A stretch of DNA of 6,551 nucleotides from Planctomycetota bacterium. GTDB lineage: Bacteria; Planctomycetota; Brocadiia; JAJRTI01. The translations under genes and the position numbers were made by a program. Below, piece after piece: positions 1 to 6,322 of the stretch (positions within the stretch are counted from its first letter, which is position 1; each line of letters opens with the position of its first letter). The notes beneath the pieces were generated by a model. The model saw only the letters and a list, made by a program, of their open reading frames with translations. It was not told where the DNA came from and did not search any database. The stretch lies in the NCBI GenBank assembly GCA_024278415.1, contig JAJRTI010000093.1:1-6551 (forward strand). The letters are read 5' to 3'.

Positions 1-279
1 ATCGAGCGCGCGGTGATCCTGTGCCAAGGCGACACCATCACGCCCGAGGACATCGCCCTTCCTATGGATCAGTTCCTCCCGCCCCCAGGAGACGTGGCGC
101 CATTGAAAGAGGCCCTGCGGGGCGCGGAGCGGCGAATCGTGCTGGATGCGCTCGAAAAGTGCGAGTTCGACAAGAGCCAGGCCGCGAAGCAACTACAAAT
201 CTCCCGCGCCAGCATCTATAATAAAATCAACGATCTGGGCCTGCGCGACCTCTTGGGTGGCCAGGATAGGACAGAATGA
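1..279 (+). CDS. Sigma-54-dependent response regulator/activator (NtrC family), C-terminal fragment
   Basis: This is the 3' end of a gene that begins before the window; the frame is open from base 1 to the TGA at 277-279. The first residues, IERAVILCQG followed by ITPEDIALP, match the segment just after the AAA+ ATPase domain in NtrC-type activators. After a proline-rich linker, the last ~55 residues form a Fis-type helix-turn-helix: a helix with ERRIVLDALEKC, then DKSQAAKQLQISRASIYNKI, which has the usual Ala-Ala and Ser-Arg-x-x-hydrophobic-Tyr-x-Lys-Ile pattern. Such proteins bind upstream enhancer sites and use ATP hydrolysis to open promoters held by sigma-54 RNA polymerase. The receiver and ATPase domains are outside the window, so the signal it senses is unknown. 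The ferritin-like gene starts 65 bases downstream, but I see no sigma-54 promoter (GG-N10-GC) in that gap. The internal GTG at 13 is not a start. Confidence 0.9.
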   Translation: MERAVILCQGDTITPEDIALPMDQFLPPPGDVAPLKEALRGAERRIVLDALEKCEFDKSQAAKQLQISRASIYNKINDLGLRDLLGGQDRTE

Positions 280-878: not shown

Positions 879-908
879 CTGGCCCGGAGCCTCGCTGTTC
901 CGGGCCAG
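879..908 (+). terminator. Hairpin terminator after the ferritin-like gene
   Basis: A perfect 10-bp GC-rich stem (CTGGCCCGGA at 879-888, TCCGGGCCAG at 899-908) encloses a 10-base loop. A run of A and C precedes it and a weak T-rich tail (CTTCGTTCT) follows. The position 24 bases after the stop codon fits an intrinsic terminator. The T tract is poor, so termination may be partial or Rho-assisted. Confidence 0.7.
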
Positions 909-989: not shown

Positions 990-1053
990 GTAGTAGGGCG
1001 ATTCATCGCCCGTCCTTGCGCCCGAAGCAACGGGCGATAAACCGCCCTACTAC
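990..1053. repeat. REP/MITE-like palindromic element
   Basis: Two 23-base arms (990-1012, beginning GTAGTAGGGCG, and 1031-1053, ending CGCCCTACTAC) are reverse complements except at two positions. Inside them TTGC (1016-1019) and GCAA (1027-1030) extend the stem around a GCCCGAA loop. Read as RNA from the minus strand, both mismatches become G-U wobbles, so the fold is intact in that direction. A small perfect palindrome, GCGGCAGATGCCGC, lies just upstream at 970-983. The element lies in non-coding DNA between a terminator and a promoter, where dispersed palindromic repeats usually sit. Only one copy is in the window, so its repeat status is inferred. Confidence 0.65.
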
Positions 1054-1141: not shown

Positions 1142-1171
1142 TTGACAACGTTCGGGGGGGGGGGGTACACT
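1142..1171 (+). promoter_or_regulatory. Sigma-70-type promoter with a poly-G spacer
   Basis: A perfect -35 hexamer, TTGACA (1142-1147), is followed after 18 bases by TACACT (1166-1171), which matches four of six positions of TATAAT. Twelve of the 18 spacer bases are an uninterrupted G run (1154-1165). Loss of one G would give the optimal 17-bp spacing. The predicted transcription start is near 1178, about 90 bases before the ATG at 1270. The promoter lies after a terminator and before five same-strand genes for exported proteins, as expected for the head of a new unit. It is a pattern match only. Confidence 0.55.
1154..1165. repeat. Homopolymeric G12 tract
   Basis: Twelve consecutive G residues are far longer than any other homopolymer in the window; the next are C7 at 946-952 and C6 at 1203-1208. 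Such tracts mutate readily by polymerase slippage. The exact length may also be wrong in a consensus assembly. Confidence 0.9.
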
Positions 1172-1178
1172 TCCACTA

Positions 1179-1217
1179 TTGTGCAATCGGAAGCTGGCGG
1201 CTCCCCCCTATGCACAA
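1179..1217 (+). promoter_or_regulatory. Dyad at the predicted transcript start
   Basis: TTGTGCA (1179-1185) and TGCACAA (1211-1217) form a perfect 7-bp inverted repeat separated by 25 bases. The left arm coincides with the predicted +1 of the poly-G promoter. It could be a 5' stabilising stem in the leader RNA or a pair of operator half-sites. A 7-bp dyad can also occur by chance. Confidence 0.3.
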
Positions 1218-1269
1218 CCGTGCAGAGCAGGCGAGTCGGGCAATCAAGATGACATCACGGAGTGGACCT

Positions 1270-1524
1270 ATGCCGCGTAACCGGATTACTTGGAAATACG
1301 CTTTGCTCGCCGCTGTCGTATTGGGCGTCCTCGCGCTGGGATATGCGCTGAGCGTACGCCGCGCGTTGGCGGACTGCCCTACCGGCTGCGACTACTGCTC
1401 GGCCGATCCCGTGTTCGTGCAGCCCGATCTGCGGCGGCCCGAGATGATCGAGTTCATTCGCAAAGCCAAAGCCAAGGGCGCGGCGGTTATCGAGAAGAAG
1501 GGCCTCGTGCTCTCGGTGAAGTAG
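1270..1524 (+). CDS. Small exported protein with a CPTGCDYC cysteine cluster
   Basis: I do not recognise this 84-residue protein. It opens with a signal peptide or N-terminal membrane anchor: charged MPRNRITWK, a hydrophobic core at about residues 11-27, then a likely cleavage after ALA (residue 34). The mature part would be ~50 residues and begins with D35 and the cysteine cluster C36-x3-C40-x2-C43, then a charged helix rich in Lys and Ala. Three cysteines just after the cleavage site could bind a metal, form a disulfide or attach to a partner. They do not form a heme motif (no CxxCH), and the lipobox fit is poor because D35 precedes C36. The ATG at 1270 is chosen because GGAG lies 7 bases upstream. 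An in-frame ATG at 1249 has a weaker site and would put polar residues before the signal sequence. It is the first gene after the poly-G promoter; the next gene starts 97 bases downstream. Confidence 0.7.
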   Translation: MPRNRITWKYALLAAVVLGVLALGYALSVRRALADCPTGCDYCSADPVFVQPDLRRPEMIEFIRKAKAKGAAVIEKKGLVLSVK

Positions 1525-1621: not shown

Positions 1622-2707
1622 ATGATACGCCATAGATTGAGTCGAGTCGTTTTCTCTGCCCTGTTGCTCTGGGCCATCTCCGTCGGGTCACGCGCGCACG
1701 CGGCCGGCGCGACCACCATTTACAAGCCGGTCCGAGCGGGGAACATCGGTGCGCTGTTCCACTTCGAGGCCGCGTGCAGTGAGGGCTGTCCCCACATGTG
1801 GTGCCGGGTCTACGAGAAAGTTGACGGCGACTGGCAGTTGCACAGCCAGTTCGGCACGGGCAGCGGCAATGTGTCATTCGATATAGCGCTTTGGGAGGGC
1901 AAGTATCGGGTCGACCTCGCCTGCCATTCGACCACGATGGATGTGCCTGAGTCCGGCTGGGCGACTTGCGCATACCTGGTCGCGTATTGGGCGGACCTTC
2001 AGGTGCGCCGCAAGGGCACGGCCGACGCCTTCGGCAACACCGCCACTGTGGCGGCCGGCGGGAAGGATTCCGACGTGCATAAAGCCGAAATCCAAGTGAC
2101 GGCCAATCCCCCCATCGCCGGCATTCCGGTGAACGTGTTCATCCAGGAAGGCACGGGCCAAGGCAAGGAAGGCACCGGCGGGCCCGCGACGTTGGAAATA
2201 GGGAACACGACCGATTGCAACGGCAAGATCACGGGCACGCTCACGTCGAGCAACAAAACCGAGGAGGTCCACTTGCAGGTGCACCCCACGGACGAGGCGT
2301 TCAACAGCGAAGTCCGCATCTACCAAGAATGGGACCACCAGAACGGCGGGGAGTGGCAATACGAGCCCTACTTCATCCCCAACGCGCCGTCAGATGTGTC
2401 TTGGACACTGGAGATCGCGGACGGCGTTCCGATCACCGGCCACACGGCCAAGTTCTACGCGCAGCGGGTCGTGTACTACGAGTGGGACGACGTGTTGCTG
2501 GACTATGTGCGCTATGAGGAGGAGCGATGTCCCGCGAACAACTGTGATCTGTCGTTCTACTCCGACTTCACTCCCGCCCAGACCCAGGACTCCGGCGACG
2601 GGGTTTACTCCTCGCAGCAGACCGTGTACGAGGACGACGAGAACTTCGATTGGTTCGTGGACGAGGTCGAGTTCCGAGGCGTGGACGACGATACGTATGT
2701 GCGGTAA
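1622..2707 (+). CDS. Exported protein of unknown function with an Ig-like (Big-1-type) segment
   Basis: The 361-residue product has a Sec signal peptide: basic MIRHRLSR, a hydrophobic core at residues 9-21 and likely cleavage after A25-H26-A27. The mature chain looks rich in beta strands. Residues 30-130 hold five cysteines (C52, C56, C61, C101, C116). Residues about 155-222 resemble a bacterial Ig-like domain of the invasin/intimin type: a strand after NPPIAGIPVNVFI, a gap, then TTDCNGKITGTLTSS, which recalls the TD-x-NGK-x-TGTLTS signature. The remainder carries C199, C303 and C308 and ends in a strongly acidic tail (residues 337-357). Eight cysteines would allow four disulfides, consistent with life outside the cytoplasm. 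GGGAG 6 bases before ATG 1622 supports the start. Its last codons are duplicated about 420 bases downstream. I cannot assign a function; a secreted or surface adhesin-like protein is possible but unproven. Confidence 0.8.
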   Translation: MIRHRLSRVVFSALLLWAISVGSRAHAAGATTIYKPVRAGNIGALFHFEAACSEGCPHMWCRVYEKVDGDWQLHSQFGTGSGNVSFDIALWEGKYRVDLACHSTTMDVPESGWATCAYLVAYWADLQVRRKGTADAFGNTATVAAGGKDSDVHKAEIQVTANPPIAGIPVNVFIQEGTGQGKEGTGGPATLEIGNTTDCNGKITGTLTSSNKTEEVHLQVHPTDEAFNSEVRIYQEWDHQNGGEWQYEPYFIPNAPSDVSWTLEIADGVPITGHTAKFYAQRVVYYEWDDVLLDYVRYEEERCPANNCDLSFYSDFTPAQTQDSGDGVYSSQQTVYEDDENFDWFVDEVEFRGVDDDTYVR

Positions 2708-2727
2708 TCCCTCAACAGCCATGCTGG
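2673..2727 (+). repeat. Boundary repeat, copy 1
   Basis: This copy covers the last codons of the exported-protein gene (GVDDDTYVR), its TAA stop, and the following leader through CAACAGCCATGCTGG. It aligns with 3098-3149 with four substitutions and one 3-base gap. In this copy an ATG at 2697 or 2721 opens a short reading frame that runs into the repeat island and stops. Confidence 0.8.
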
Positions 2728-2728
2728 G

Positions 2729-2884
2729 CTTGCTTAACACGACGTTCGTGTTGGCCGTCTCGGCTGTACGTGTTTAGCGTGCGCATGCGAAGAAACGAGA
2801 CGCGTAGCCGCATGCGCCAGCATGCGGGCCAGCCGGCGAGCGCCGCGCAGAACGCCCGCATTCTGGCGAATGCGGCTACCACGC
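2729..2884. repeat. 156-bp tandem repeat, unit A
   Basis: This unit is directly followed by unit B with no spacer; the two differ at 8 of 156 positions by my count. It begins CTTGCTTAACACG and ends GGCTACCACGC. Inside, arms 2804-2828 and 2855-2879 form a 25-base inverted repeat with two mismatches. Each arm is also a perfect 8-bp hairpin with a 4-base loop: CCGCATGC/GCATGCGG at 2808-2827 and CCGCATTC/GAATGCGG at 2856-2875. The unit length is a multiple of three, which keeps meaningless reading frames open across it. Confidence 0.92.
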
Positions 2885-3068
2885 CTTGCTTGATACGATG
2901 TTCGTGTTGGCTGTCTCGGCTGAACGTGTTTAGCGTGCGCATGCGAAGAAACGAGACGCGTAGCCGCATGCGCCAGCATGCGGGCCAGCCGACGAGCGCT
3001 ACGCAGAACGCCCGCATTCTGGCGAATGCGGCTACCACGCACGCTAAACACGTACACTCGGCCAACAC
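2748..3068. mobile_element. Candidate non-autonomous element bounded by inverted repeats
   Basis: The left arm 2748-2782 (starting GTGTTGGCCG, ending TAGCGTGC) is the reverse complement of the right arm 3039-3068 at 28 of 30 right-arm positions, apart from a 5-base gap in the middle. The enclosed DNA is the tandem 156-bp repeat with its hairpins and no credible gene. Small size, long inverted ends, strong foldback potential and intergenic position fit a MITE-like element. No transposase is present and no clean target duplication was found right at the ends. It could also be a dispersed structured repeat of another kind. Confidence 0.5.
2885..3040. repeat. 156-bp tandem repeat, unit B
   Basis: This is the second copy of the unit at 2729-2884. 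Its nested hairpin arms are at 2960-2984 and 3011-3035. The differences from unit A cluster in the first ~40 bases and in the loop between the arms; all four hairpin stems are unchanged. It runs directly into the right-end inverted arm at 3039-3068. Confidence 0.92.
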
Positions 3069-3097
3069 CCACAACACCTGTGGCCCCACTGGGCCGG

Positions 3098-3149
3098 TCC
3101 GAGCCGTGGACGACATGTATGTGCAGTAATCGCTCAACAGCCATGCTGG
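3098..3149 (+). repeat. Boundary repeat, copy 2
   Basis: This diverged direct copy of 2673-2727 keeps the codon phase of the upstream gene's tail. GTG GAC GAC ATG TAT GTG CAG TAA would read VDDMYVQ-stop, against VDDDTYVR-stop in copy 1; one whole codon is missing. It also contains the ATG candidates (3119 and 3143) for the helical exported protein downstream. Confidence 0.8.
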
Positions 3150-4363
3150 TGCTGATGGGCCTCCTTGGTCCGTGTGGCTCTGGCGCATGGGCCGGCCCCC
3201 CGCCTGTCCCCAAGGCCTTCACCCGCGAGATCGTCGAGGAACTCATCGCCAAGGTCGACGAAGGCCGCAACGCGATGCTGCTCAAGGTCCCCTACCTCGT
3301 GAGCCGGCGCAAGCACCCCTTCCCACATCATTTGGGCCTGAAGATGATGCGGGAAGCGGTCAAGGCTGAGGAGCCCAGCACGAAGCGGTGGATCCTGCTC
3401 AAGTGCCTCTACGCGTTCGGCACGTACCAACGCGGGGCATTCCTGGACACGACGACGTACATCGAACTGTTCGAGAACCAACTGGCGCGGCCCAACCCTG
3501 AGGCGAGCCGGGAGATCAACTCGGCGCTCTTCGACTTCCTCCACGAGTACAGCGCCTGCCCGTACCCGGAGACGGTTCGATCAGCCAAAACGGCGAAGGC
3601 CATGGGGTTGGCCGCCAGGCTCTATCTCGCGTGGCCAGAATTGCGGTATCGGGAGCTGGACTTCGGTCCCGTGCTCGAAAAGGCCAAGGACATCCAGATC
3701 GTCAAGGACGCCTTGGACCGCGCGGCGCAGAGCGCGCTGGCCGGGGAGAGCGGCTCGACGTACGTCGCGCTCAAGCGCGCGGGCATGATCTATAAGCCTT
3801 GGAAGCCAGAGGAGGCGCTGGCGCTGTTCCAGAAGGCCGAGCCCTTGCTGAATCGGGAGGACAGGGACGAGGTCGAGCGCTTCTACACGCACGAGGTGGA
3901 CGTGCTCGTGTCCCTGAAGCGCGTCGACGAGGCCATCGCTGCCCAGAAGAAGCTCCAGGATCTCACGGGCCGCGGCCAGGTGCGGCTGTTGGTGCTGCGT
4001 GAGCAAGCCGGGCAGAAGGACGCCATCGACCGTGGGCTGGGCACCATGGACTATGCCACGATCGGTGAGAAGGAGCTACGCGATCTCTGCGAGAGGCTCT
4101 TCCAAGCGAAGGAGTCCGTAAAAGCCGTGCCCGCGCTGAGGGGCTACCTGCAAGCCTCCCGCCAACGCGATCCAGGGTGCGAACTCTGGGCGCGCTACCG
4201 GCTGGCGAGCCTCCTCGCCACGGACAAGAAATTCGACGAGGCCAGGAAGGTGGCCGATGCCAGCCACCTGAAGCCGCCGTTCAGCACCGCCAAAGCAAGG
4301 ATCTATTATGGCCGGCTGGAGAAGCTGCGCCGTCGGCTCTCAGCCAAAGCAGGCAAGCAGTAA
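3119..4363 (+). CDS. Exported all-helical TPR-like protein
   Basis: Read from ATG 3119 this is 414 residues; from ATG 3143 it is 406. The open frame reaches back to 2978, but that part is repeat DNA and is not counted. Neither start has a strong ribosome binding site. I prefer 3119 because it adds R5 in front of the hydrophobic stretch (MLVLMGLLG) of a signal peptide that would be cut after AWA (residue 25). The mature chain is almost entirely amphipathic helices rich in Ala, Leu, Lys and Glu. Residues about 214-245 and 250-282 look like consecutive tetratricopeptide-type hairpins (PEEALALFQKAEPLL, then VDEAIAAQKKLQDL), with another near 355-383 (FDEARKVADA). Such repeats usually serve protein-protein contact. 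No catalytic motif is seen. It ends 19 bases before the next gene, so the two are probably co-transcribed. Its start region overlaps a duplicated boundary, which may have changed its expression. Confidence 0.75.
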   Translation: MCSNRSTAMLVLMGLLGPCGSGAWAGPPPVPKAFTREIVEELIAKVDEGRNAMLLKVPYLVSRRKHPFPHHLGLKMMREAVKAEEPSTKRWILLKCLYAFGTYQRGAFLDTTTYIELFENQLARPNPEASREINSALFDFLHEYSACPYPETVRSAKTAKAMGLAARLYLAWPELRYRELDFGPVLEKAKDIQIVKDALDRAAQSALAGESGSTYVALKRAGMIYKPWKPEEALALFQKAEPLLNREDRDEVERFYTHEVDVLVSLKRVDEAIAAQKKLQDLTGRGQVRLLVLREQAGQKDAIDRGLGTMDYATIGEKELRDLCERLFQAKESVKAVPALRGYLQASRQRDPGCELWARYRLASLLATDKKFDEARKVADASHLKPPFSTAKARIYYGRLEKLRRRLSAKAGKQ

Positions 4364-4382: not shown

Positions 4383-5516
4383 ATGGTATACTGTAAGCAT
4401 CCAGCCAGACATCCCAGCTTAGCAGTCACTTGCATGGCTGGAGCCCTTCTTGTGCTTGTCGTCGCCTGGTACCCTCCCCTGTGCTGGGCGGCCGAGGGAG
4501 ACCCGGATGACGTGAAGGGGAAGGCGGGCGCTGAAGGCGAAGCAATCGATGTCACTATTCTTCGAGACGGACAGTCTGTGACCCAGCAAAACAATCTAGT
4601 CTGGGTCGGGGAACGGATCAACTTGTCCGTGAGCGTGCCAAACGGCTACACGGTGTCCTTGTACAACTGGAGGATCCCGACCGTGTACGTGAAGGACTGG
4701 CCCGCGGCGAGGGACCAGGCTTCGGTTGCGCCGCTTCCGGCCGCGGACAAGGCCAAGTCGTCGCTCGACTTCTGTTGGGTGGACGGTGGCACAGTGAGTC
4801 AGCCCGCAGTCAAGACGGTCGAATGCTACGTGCACATCGAGGGCCAAGGAGGTGTGCACCGCAAGGCGGAGTTCCGCGTGCGCAGGCCGACCGTGACCAC
4901 TTTTTCGGCCACACTTGGCCCGGGAGCCAAGGCTCACCTCTCCCCCGCTGCAGGGCCTCCTGACTTCCCTCACACCATGATGAGATTCTGTGACGCAACT
5001 CCGAGTGAGGGCGCAGGTGTTGAGTATGCTGTCACGATCGCCAAGGTTGATGGAGCTTGGGTCGGCCAGTGGCAGCTTGTCCATGTCATGAAGCCACGCC
5101 GGCACGTCAAAGACATCGGTCTGTGGAGGCCCAGTCCGCAGAACGACAGGACTGACATTGGAGATGGCTATTGGTTCTACCGGCGCGGTGATGGAAAGGA
5201 GTGGTCTGGTATTCCAGACGCCCCTATGATAGGCCTGAGCGGCGAGCGTTGGGAGTTCGGCGGCGTGAGATGCGGCAATGTCGTCGGGGGTGGCCTGGAC
5301 CCGGAGCAGTTCTGGGTTTACCTCATGTGGAAGCCTCCCGTTTCGACCTCAATCTGGGTTCCTTTGGAGTACCTGTCATGGAAATGGGCTGGCGAGGCGG
5401 CGAAGATAGGCGGCGCTTGGACAATGATCGCACAGCCGACGCCGGTAATGGCGTTCAATCGCACGGTGACTACTGACTTCCCCCAATGGAATGAGGATTT
5501 CAAGACGGAATGGTGA
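4383..5516 (+). CDS. Exported beta-rich protein of an uncharacterised family
   Basis: The product is 377 residues. ATG 4383 is preferred over TTG 4380 because AGGAG lies 8 bases upstream. A signal peptide is present (MVYCKHPARH, hydrophobic core at about 19-29, possible cleavage after CWA at residue 36). Residues about 52-170 form an Ig-like strand pattern: IDVTILRDG, WVGERINLSV, YNWRIP, VKDW, SSLDFCWVDGG and AEFRVRRPT. Residues 200-377 are rich in Trp and Tyr and end with FWVYLMWKPP, SIWVPLEYLSW, a Trp-x-Gly turn and DFPQWNED. From memory, this order (a strand with YLM-x-KP, a WVPL strand, W-x-W, then FP-x-W) recurs in hypothetical exported proteins of many environmental bacteria, often with no assigned role. 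I know of no function and no named family. The gene follows the helical protein by 19 bases and shares its strand. Confidence 0.8.
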   Translation: MVYCKHPARHPSLAVTCMAGALLVLVVAWYPPLCWAAEGDPDDVKGKAGAEGEAIDVTILRDGQSVTQQNNLVWVGERINLSVSVPNGYTVSLYNWRIPTVYVKDWPAARDQASVAPLPAADKAKSSLDFCWVDGGTVSQPAVKTVECYVHIEGQGGVHRKAEFRVRRPTVTTFSATLGPGAKAHLSPAAGPPDFPHTMMRFCDATPSEGAGVEYAVTIAKVDGAWVGQWQLVHVMKPRRHVKDIGLWRPSPQNDRTDIGDGYWFYRRGDGKEWSGIPDAPMIGLSGERWEFGGVRCGNVVGGGLDPEQFWVYLMWKPPVSTSIWVPLEYLSWKWAGEAAKIGGAWTMIAQPTPVMAFNRTVTTDFPQWNEDFKTEW

Positions 5517-5764: not shown

Positions 5765-6322
5765 ATGAGACGGCAACCGATCGCGATCGAGATCATGGTT
5801 CCCATGGCACTGTGGGTCGTTATGGGGGCAGGCGTTGCGGCTTCCTCTGAAAAGAAGAAGCAAGCGGTGCGCGTAGAGAAGGCGGTAAGCCGCGACGGGC
5901 TGCGACTCGTTGTATCAGTGGTCAGGGACGTAGGCTTTTCTGAGCCGCTGTGGCTTCGTGCTACGCTGGTCAACGAGAAGCATGAGTTCGTGGTGGTGCG
6001 CGAACCGCAACGCTACGCTGCCTTCGAGTTGACGGTGTCCCGAGTCACCAGGGATGGCCTGACTCCCGTGAACAAGACGGCTCTTGGCCGACGTCTGTTG
6101 AGTCCAGATCCGAGGGGCTTGAGGGATAGGCTCACACGGTACCGGTTGCTGCGCGGGTACGGCATCCGCTACAAGCTCGATCTCTCAAAGCTCTTCGATG
6201 TTACTGATCCGGCCGAGTACGCACTGACCGTCTCTTCGCCGGAACTGCTGTATCCCAAAGGGCTGAAAGGACCCTCCGTCAGCGATCTGCGCGTCCGCGT
6301 CGATACCTTTGGCTGCATTTAG
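5765..6322 (+). CDS. Exported beta-rich protein of unknown function
   Basis: The product is 185 residues. ATG 5765 is chosen because TAGGAG ends 8 bases upstream and because it places the signal peptide at the N-terminus: MRR, hydrophobic core at about 8-24, cleavage near GVAA (residues 23-26). The frame is open back to a GTG at 5687, but that would bury the signal peptide. The mature part starts with a lysine cluster and then gives alternating strands: RLVVSVVRD, PLWLRATLVN, FELTVSRVTRDGLTPVN, YKLDLSKLFDVTDPAEYALTVSS and VSDLRVRVD. This looks like a single beta-sandwich of about 150 residues, of the kind seen in exported proteins that lack known activity. Only one cysteine (C184) is present, at the end. 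The same frame stays open and coding-like for 35 more codons after the TAG stop. Confidence 0.75.
   Translation: MRRQPIAIEIMVPMALWVVMGAGVAASSEKKKQAVRVEKAVSRDGLRLVVSVVRDVGFSEPLWLRATLVNEKHEFVVVREPQRYAAFELTVSRVTRDGLTPVNKTALGRRLLSPDPRGLRDRLTRYRLLRGYGIRYKLDLSKLFDVTDPAEYALTVSSPELLYPKGLKGPSVSDLRVRVDTFGCI

Follow-up and report, generated by a model that had tools for sequence, protein, structure and literature searches.

To our knowledge, slippage promoters are known mainly from host-adapted pathogens. In the porA promoter of Neisseria meningitidis a poly-G tract lies between the -35 and -10 elements (PMC7864442, PMC5320596), and a spacing of 17 bp between these elements is called optimal (PMC7864442). 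The fetA promoter of Neisseria gonorrhoeae has poly-C between -10 and -35, ranging from C10 to C14 in six strains, and its expression is altered by the spacing (PMC5320596). A poly-G tract of varying length is also present in the promoter of tprL, which encodes a putative outer-membrane protein of Treponema pallidum; there the tract overlaps the -10 region in part, and the reporter signal was higher with 8 G than with 10 G, the spacing being unchanged (PMC7864442). The modal length of poly-G tracts in Neisseria is 9-10, and switching is more frequent in longer tracts (PMC5953494).

The window, by which we mean the whole 6,551-nt stretch of DNA analyzed here, holds a site that resembles these promoters to different degrees. 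As in porA, a G tract lies in the spacer of a promoter, here one whose product is predicted to be exported, and slippage would shift the spacing (PMC7864442, PMC5320596); the site differs from porA in lineage and gene and in having a perfect -35, and it is known here from its sequence anatomy. Like fetA it has a homopolymer in the spacer, the difference being that fetA has C on the coding strand where the window has G (PMC5320596). Unlike tprL, in which the run overlaps the -10, the window run falls wholly between the hexamers, as in porA (PMC7864442). By the Neisseria yardstick its 12 G are long enough to slip (PMC5953494). A promoter of the porA kind has a homopolymer between -35 and -10 and a spacing near 17, and here the homopolymer occupies an 18-nt spacer; if the site works as proposed, it would be a promoter of this already known kind in another lineage.

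A promoter-like site with a poly-G spacer

The sequence-only reading of the window had described a perfect TTGACA, a spacer of 18 nt of which 12 are G, and TACACT. We checked this layout, and both letters and coordinates agree with it (Table 1). The porA-like arrangement claimed in that reading likewise holds as anatomy, with the G run between the hexamers and the tract in noncoding DNA. Scored as a sigma-70-like site the candidate promoter reaches 10 of 12, against 8 of 12 for the runner-up on the + strand between position 909 and the 84-aa gene. Transcription from sigma-70 promoters begins about 7 nt past the -10, and the start is predicted on that geometry. A possible operator, in the form of an inverted repeat, lies at the predicted start; a fold of the RNA leader around this repeat was no more stable than shuffles (z +0.67). 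A sigma-54 promoter was also considered, prompted by a Fis-type regulator that ends at 279, and was rejected when no sigma-54-like site was found at 850-1300 with up to 3 mismatches allowed.

Table 1. Coordinates of the features at and around the candidate promoter, in window positions.
Feature	Position	Strand	Remarks
Rubrerythrin-type protein, 169 aa	345..854	+	Pfam Rubrerythrin, E 4.9e-18; taken as separate transcription unit
Terminator-like hairpin 3' of the rubrerythrin gene	879..908	+	12-pair stem, 9 G-C, T-rich tail
REP-like hairpin element, same intergenic region	990..1053	.	24-nt arms, 92% complementary
-35 hexamer TTGACA	1142..1147	+	6/6 consensus match
Spacer, ACGTTC followed by G12	1148-1165	+	18 nt
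G12 tract	1154..1165	+	Two thirds of the spacer; abuts the -10
-10 hexamer TACACT	1166..1171	+	4/6 consensus match
Predicted transcription start	1178	+	About 7 nt past the -10
Inverted repeat, candidate operator	1174..1222 (arms 1174-1185, 1211-1222)	.	Arms 83% complementary
Shine-Dalgarno-like GGAG of the 84-aa gene	1259..1262	+	
84-aa protein, first gene after the promoter	1270..1524	+	N-terminal hydrophobic stretch, conserved Cys-containing core
361-aa protein, signal-like N-terminus	1622..2707	+	Big_1 (Ig-like), E 0.0015, below Pfam cut-off; 9 relatives
406-aa protein, hydrophobic N-terminus	3143..4363	+	Weak TPR matches, below cut-off
377-aa protein, hydrophobic N-terminus	4383..5516	+	No Pfam match
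185-aa protein, hydrophobic N-terminus	5765..6322	+	No Pfam match

Because the 84-aa gene lies 3' of the terminator-like hairpin that follows the rubrerythrin gene, it needs a promoter of its own; terminator-like hairpins are pattern matches only, the window holding 3 where 4.9 are expected. The gene begins 98 nt from the candidate promoter and is conserved. A protein search found 7 relatives of its product at 62-75% identity; six have 84 aa, the remaining one has 73 aa, and none is longer. All seven begin at a position matching 1270 or later, and we therefore place the gene start at 1270 and the G tract outside the coding sequence. An in-frame ORF at 1066-1524 spans the run and raised the candidate of a coding tract, which was rejected on these same seven starts.

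In all five downstream proteins the most hydrophobic 15 residues lie near the N-terminus, unlike in the rubrerythrin. The sequence-only reading had proposed a row of exported proteins behind the promoter; exported-type N-termini are indeed present in five of five, while export itself stands as a prediction from hydropathy. We infer that the row forms one operon in which the later genes are co-transcribed. For relatives of each of the first three proteins (P0018, P0004 and P0020) the longest contig measures 17,893 nt, and the three would most simply lie on a single contig, so that the three-gene row looks conserved among relatives, to the extent that this single shared figure indicates. The family of the 361-aa protein was found in 0 of 5 and 0 of 340 Elusimicrobiota genomes, in a search that had no positive control and shows little.

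Between the 361-aa and 406-aa genes the window contains an insert (2673-3149) with perfect 19-bp inverted repeats (2765-2783 and 3038-3056) and two direct copies of 156 nt at 2729-3040 that are 95% identical. The flanks of this insert are themselves duplicated over 41 nt at 90% (2687-2727 and 3109-3149), and within them one gene ends and the next begins.

Poly-G promoters in other genomes

We surveyed the phyla of two remote relatives of the window rubrerythrin, one from Elusimicrobia (L002) and one from Ancylomarina of the Bacteroidota (L001); the window protein compares with these two relatives at 24% and 32% over the best segments. The search pattern was TTGACN{5,9}G9N{0,3}TANNNT, and the same pattern read backward served as the control. 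The 198 genomes of the Elusimicrobiota set gave 11 rows, representing 10 places in 5 genomes, against 1 for the backward control. A version of the pattern with a C run gave 0 in the same 198 genomes and 1 with its own backward control. A looser pattern, run on the 296 genomes of the Bacteroidota set, likewise gave 11 rows; these are 10 places spread over 9 genomes, and the control gave 2. Three families were searched with a relaxed pattern. In the G029 family (59 genomes) it returned 25 rows, which represent 21 places and come from 14 genomes, and its control returned 2; in the G310 family (148 genomes) the counts were 6 rows and 3 for the control. There was no excess in the G180 family (90 genomes), with 15 rows against 15 backward-control rows; ten of those 15 rows come from G180 itself, leaving 5 against 14 control rows outside it. 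Promoter patterns in viral contigs numbered 0 with G and 0 with C, which is uninformative. The look-alike promoters are clustered in certain genomes and unevenly spread.

Spacers of 16-19 occur in 14 of 28 places flagged as noncoding versus 0 of 7 flagged as coding (36 places, one unassigned), where the flags were set by hand and are rough and the spacers are those of the pattern's own reading. Of the runs of G10 or longer in G029, 4 of 6 lie at such promoter sites, as do 12 of 15 in G180, where both tract sets are counted. The share is lower in G570 (1 of 12), G574 (1 of 6) and G539 (1 or 2 of 14). The likeness of these genomes to the window is one of promoter arrangement. A kinship search of the Elusimicrobiota set matched 23 of the 198 genomes, the best at 28-30%, and searches of viral contigs and of plasmids returned no relative.

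Seven promoters in G180 have near-identical flanks (74-96% over 50 nt upstream, 80-93% over 60 nt downstream), with tracts of G9, 10, 10, 11, 12, 15 and 16 and spacers of 10, 11, 12, 12, 14, 17 and 17. All seven genes behind them carry a prepilin N-methylation motif (Pfam), two of them being truncated at contig ends. In a second G180 set, six tracts of G10-12 directly abut TTGAC, with no clear -10; five of the five genes behind them carry the prepilin N-methylation motif (Pfam), and the sixth tract lies at a contig end. In total twelve prepilin-type genes of G180 thus stand behind poly-G in two promoter types (L037-L039, L041-L044, L131, L133, L134, L136, L137), and together they look like a switchable pilin repertoire. 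Sites in G157 and G033 are also upstream of genes with a prepilin N-methylation motif.

Assembled G-tract lengths are to be read as approximate, since one G180 contig end (L138, G180:C134:1-600) carries a G29 run that looks like a sequencing artefact. Here G29 and G18 stand next to the flank of a prepilin promoter, seen on the opposite strand; we take the two runs to be a probable artefact of two-colour sequencing at the tract. Differences in length among paralogous or distant loci are, moreover, not the same thing as variation within one population.

A second group comes from the family of G029, in which eight loci in six genomes lie upstream of proteins with a common anchored N-terminus. Their spacers are 16, 16, 17, 17, 18, 18, 18 and 19, with one run interrupted, and the eight proteins are pairwise 44-78% identical, some over just 58-100 residues. 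Pfam assigns an FGE-sulfatase domain to five of the eight (L035, L036, L064, L072 and L073, with spacers of 16, 17, 17, 18 and 19); the other three (L033, L063 and L074) have the common N-terminus without FGE, two being cut by contig ends and one having no Pfam match. A fourth poly-G promoter of G029 is upstream of a different protein, which has an N-terminal hydrophobic stretch.

The 10 places of the Bacteroidota set have spacers, counted by hand, of 10, 10, 15, 16, 16, 17, 17, 18, 19 and 19, that is, 16-19 in seven of ten. Three of these seven sites (L048, L050 and L051) precede a secreted-looking peptide of 67-71 aa, after which comes a lipoprotein of the DUF4221 or DUF5128 type, and the peptides themselves have no Pfam match. 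Of the seven, six of which were looked at, one is overlapped by a 538-aa ORF on the opposite strand. The window and this Bacteroidota trio both have a small exported-type protein and then a larger one, a likeness of layout only for which no homology is claimed.

Switch, fixed spacer or chance

With moderate confidence we favor the reading that the site is a sigma-70-type promoter of the transcription unit of the 84-aa gene, probably tuned by slippage in the G tract as in porA. RNA polymerase would use the promoter at 1142-1171, and replication slippage in this lineage would gain or lose G and thereby change the distance between -35 and -10. Tracts of 10, 11, 12 and 13 G correspond to spacings of 16, 17, 18 and 19 bp, and promoter strength would differ among them, giving a reversible high, medium or low setting of the exported proteins cell by cell. 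At 18 bp, the 12 G of the assembly would then represent an intermediate state, and 11 G would give the 17 bp that is the porA optimum (PMC7864442). Differing tract lengths behind near-identical flanks in other genomes are counted as support for a slippage class. Against a switch stand the -10 hexamer of the window, which matches just 4 of 6 positions, the survey counts for the families of G180 (15 rows, 15 in the control) and G310 (6 rows, 3 in the control), and the fact that most runs of G10 or longer in G570, G574 and G539 lie off such promoters.

The MraZ promoters of G546, G550, G565 and G567 (L065, L066, L069 and L071), where Pfam upholds the MraZ identity in four of four genes, contain a run of G8 or G9 that adjoins the -35, and they keep the spacer at a constant 17 bp by compensating for the one-base difference between runs. 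A G run is therefore possible in an ordinary promoter, and the arrangement alone is no proof of a switch. These promoters lend weight to the reading that the window site is a real promoter whose G run is a fixed, tolerated spacer, with too little variation or no selection for a switch. We judge this unlikely, though far from negligible: the MraZ tracts are shorter than that of the window (8-9 versus 12) and sit at the -35 side, the spacings at other loci in the G029 family range over 16-19, and in Neisseria slippage becomes more frequent as tracts lengthen (PMC5953494).

Whether the site could be a product of chance was addressed by simulation. The G12 tract is the sole G run longer than 5 in the window, where the longest C run is 7. 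In Markov models trained on the window without the G12 run, a G or C run of at least 12 appeared in 2, 1, 4 and 25 of 1500 windows (orders 1, 2, 3 and 4), so that the tract is improbable by chance. Its flanks are improbable as well: when G12 was given random window flanks, a perfect TTGACA together with a -10 matching at least 4 of 6 and a spacer of 16-18 was obtained in 2 draws out of 200,000, a count that rose to 62 with the -35 relaxed to 5 of 6, for a site that was picked post hoc on inspection of the window. These draws count against the reading that an unremarkable G run lies beside promoter-resembling sequence while transcription starts elsewhere, and so does the finding that no sigma-70-like site between 909 and the gene scored higher and no sigma-54-like site turned up at 850-1300. 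That reading draws on the post hoc choice and on a scan of the whole window for the promoter match alone, which was not above chance (1 found versus a mean of 1.5 in shuffles), and we hold it to be improbable.

That the tract is a protein- or structure-based element, such as a regulator site or an unusual DNA structure that overlaps the promoter, whose length acts with no change of spacing, as discussed for tprL, accords with the tprL reporter result (PMC7864442) and with the inverted repeat at the predicted start, but is very improbable for a run that, as reported for porA, lies cleanly between the hexamers.

Possible slippage-tuned promoters beyond the window

The set of look-alike promoters in other genomes is the unexpected and most interesting outcome of this analysis. 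They share with the window a TTGAC-type -35 and a G run abutting the -10, which in the look-alikes is of TATACT or TATTAT type, and differ from it in their unrelated downstream genes, which encode prepilins, anchored and mostly FGE-type proteins, and small secreted-looking peptides. Our search found no published account of these promoters; subscription journals were mostly outside it, and this is weak evidence of absence. Tentatively, and with slightly less than even confidence, we propose that promoters with a poly-G spacer may be a recurrent and independently evolved slippage switch in uncultured or little-studied bacteria of several phyla, one that would act gene by gene to vary prepilin repertoires, anchored proteins of FGE type and small exported peptides, the window being one such switch in a further lineage.

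If the switch is real, the seven prepilin promoters of G180, with tracts from G9 to G16, allow a direct test of the rule that relates spacing to output. Should the wider proposal be true, little-studied bacteria of other phyla would also randomize the expression of their surface proteins and pilins.
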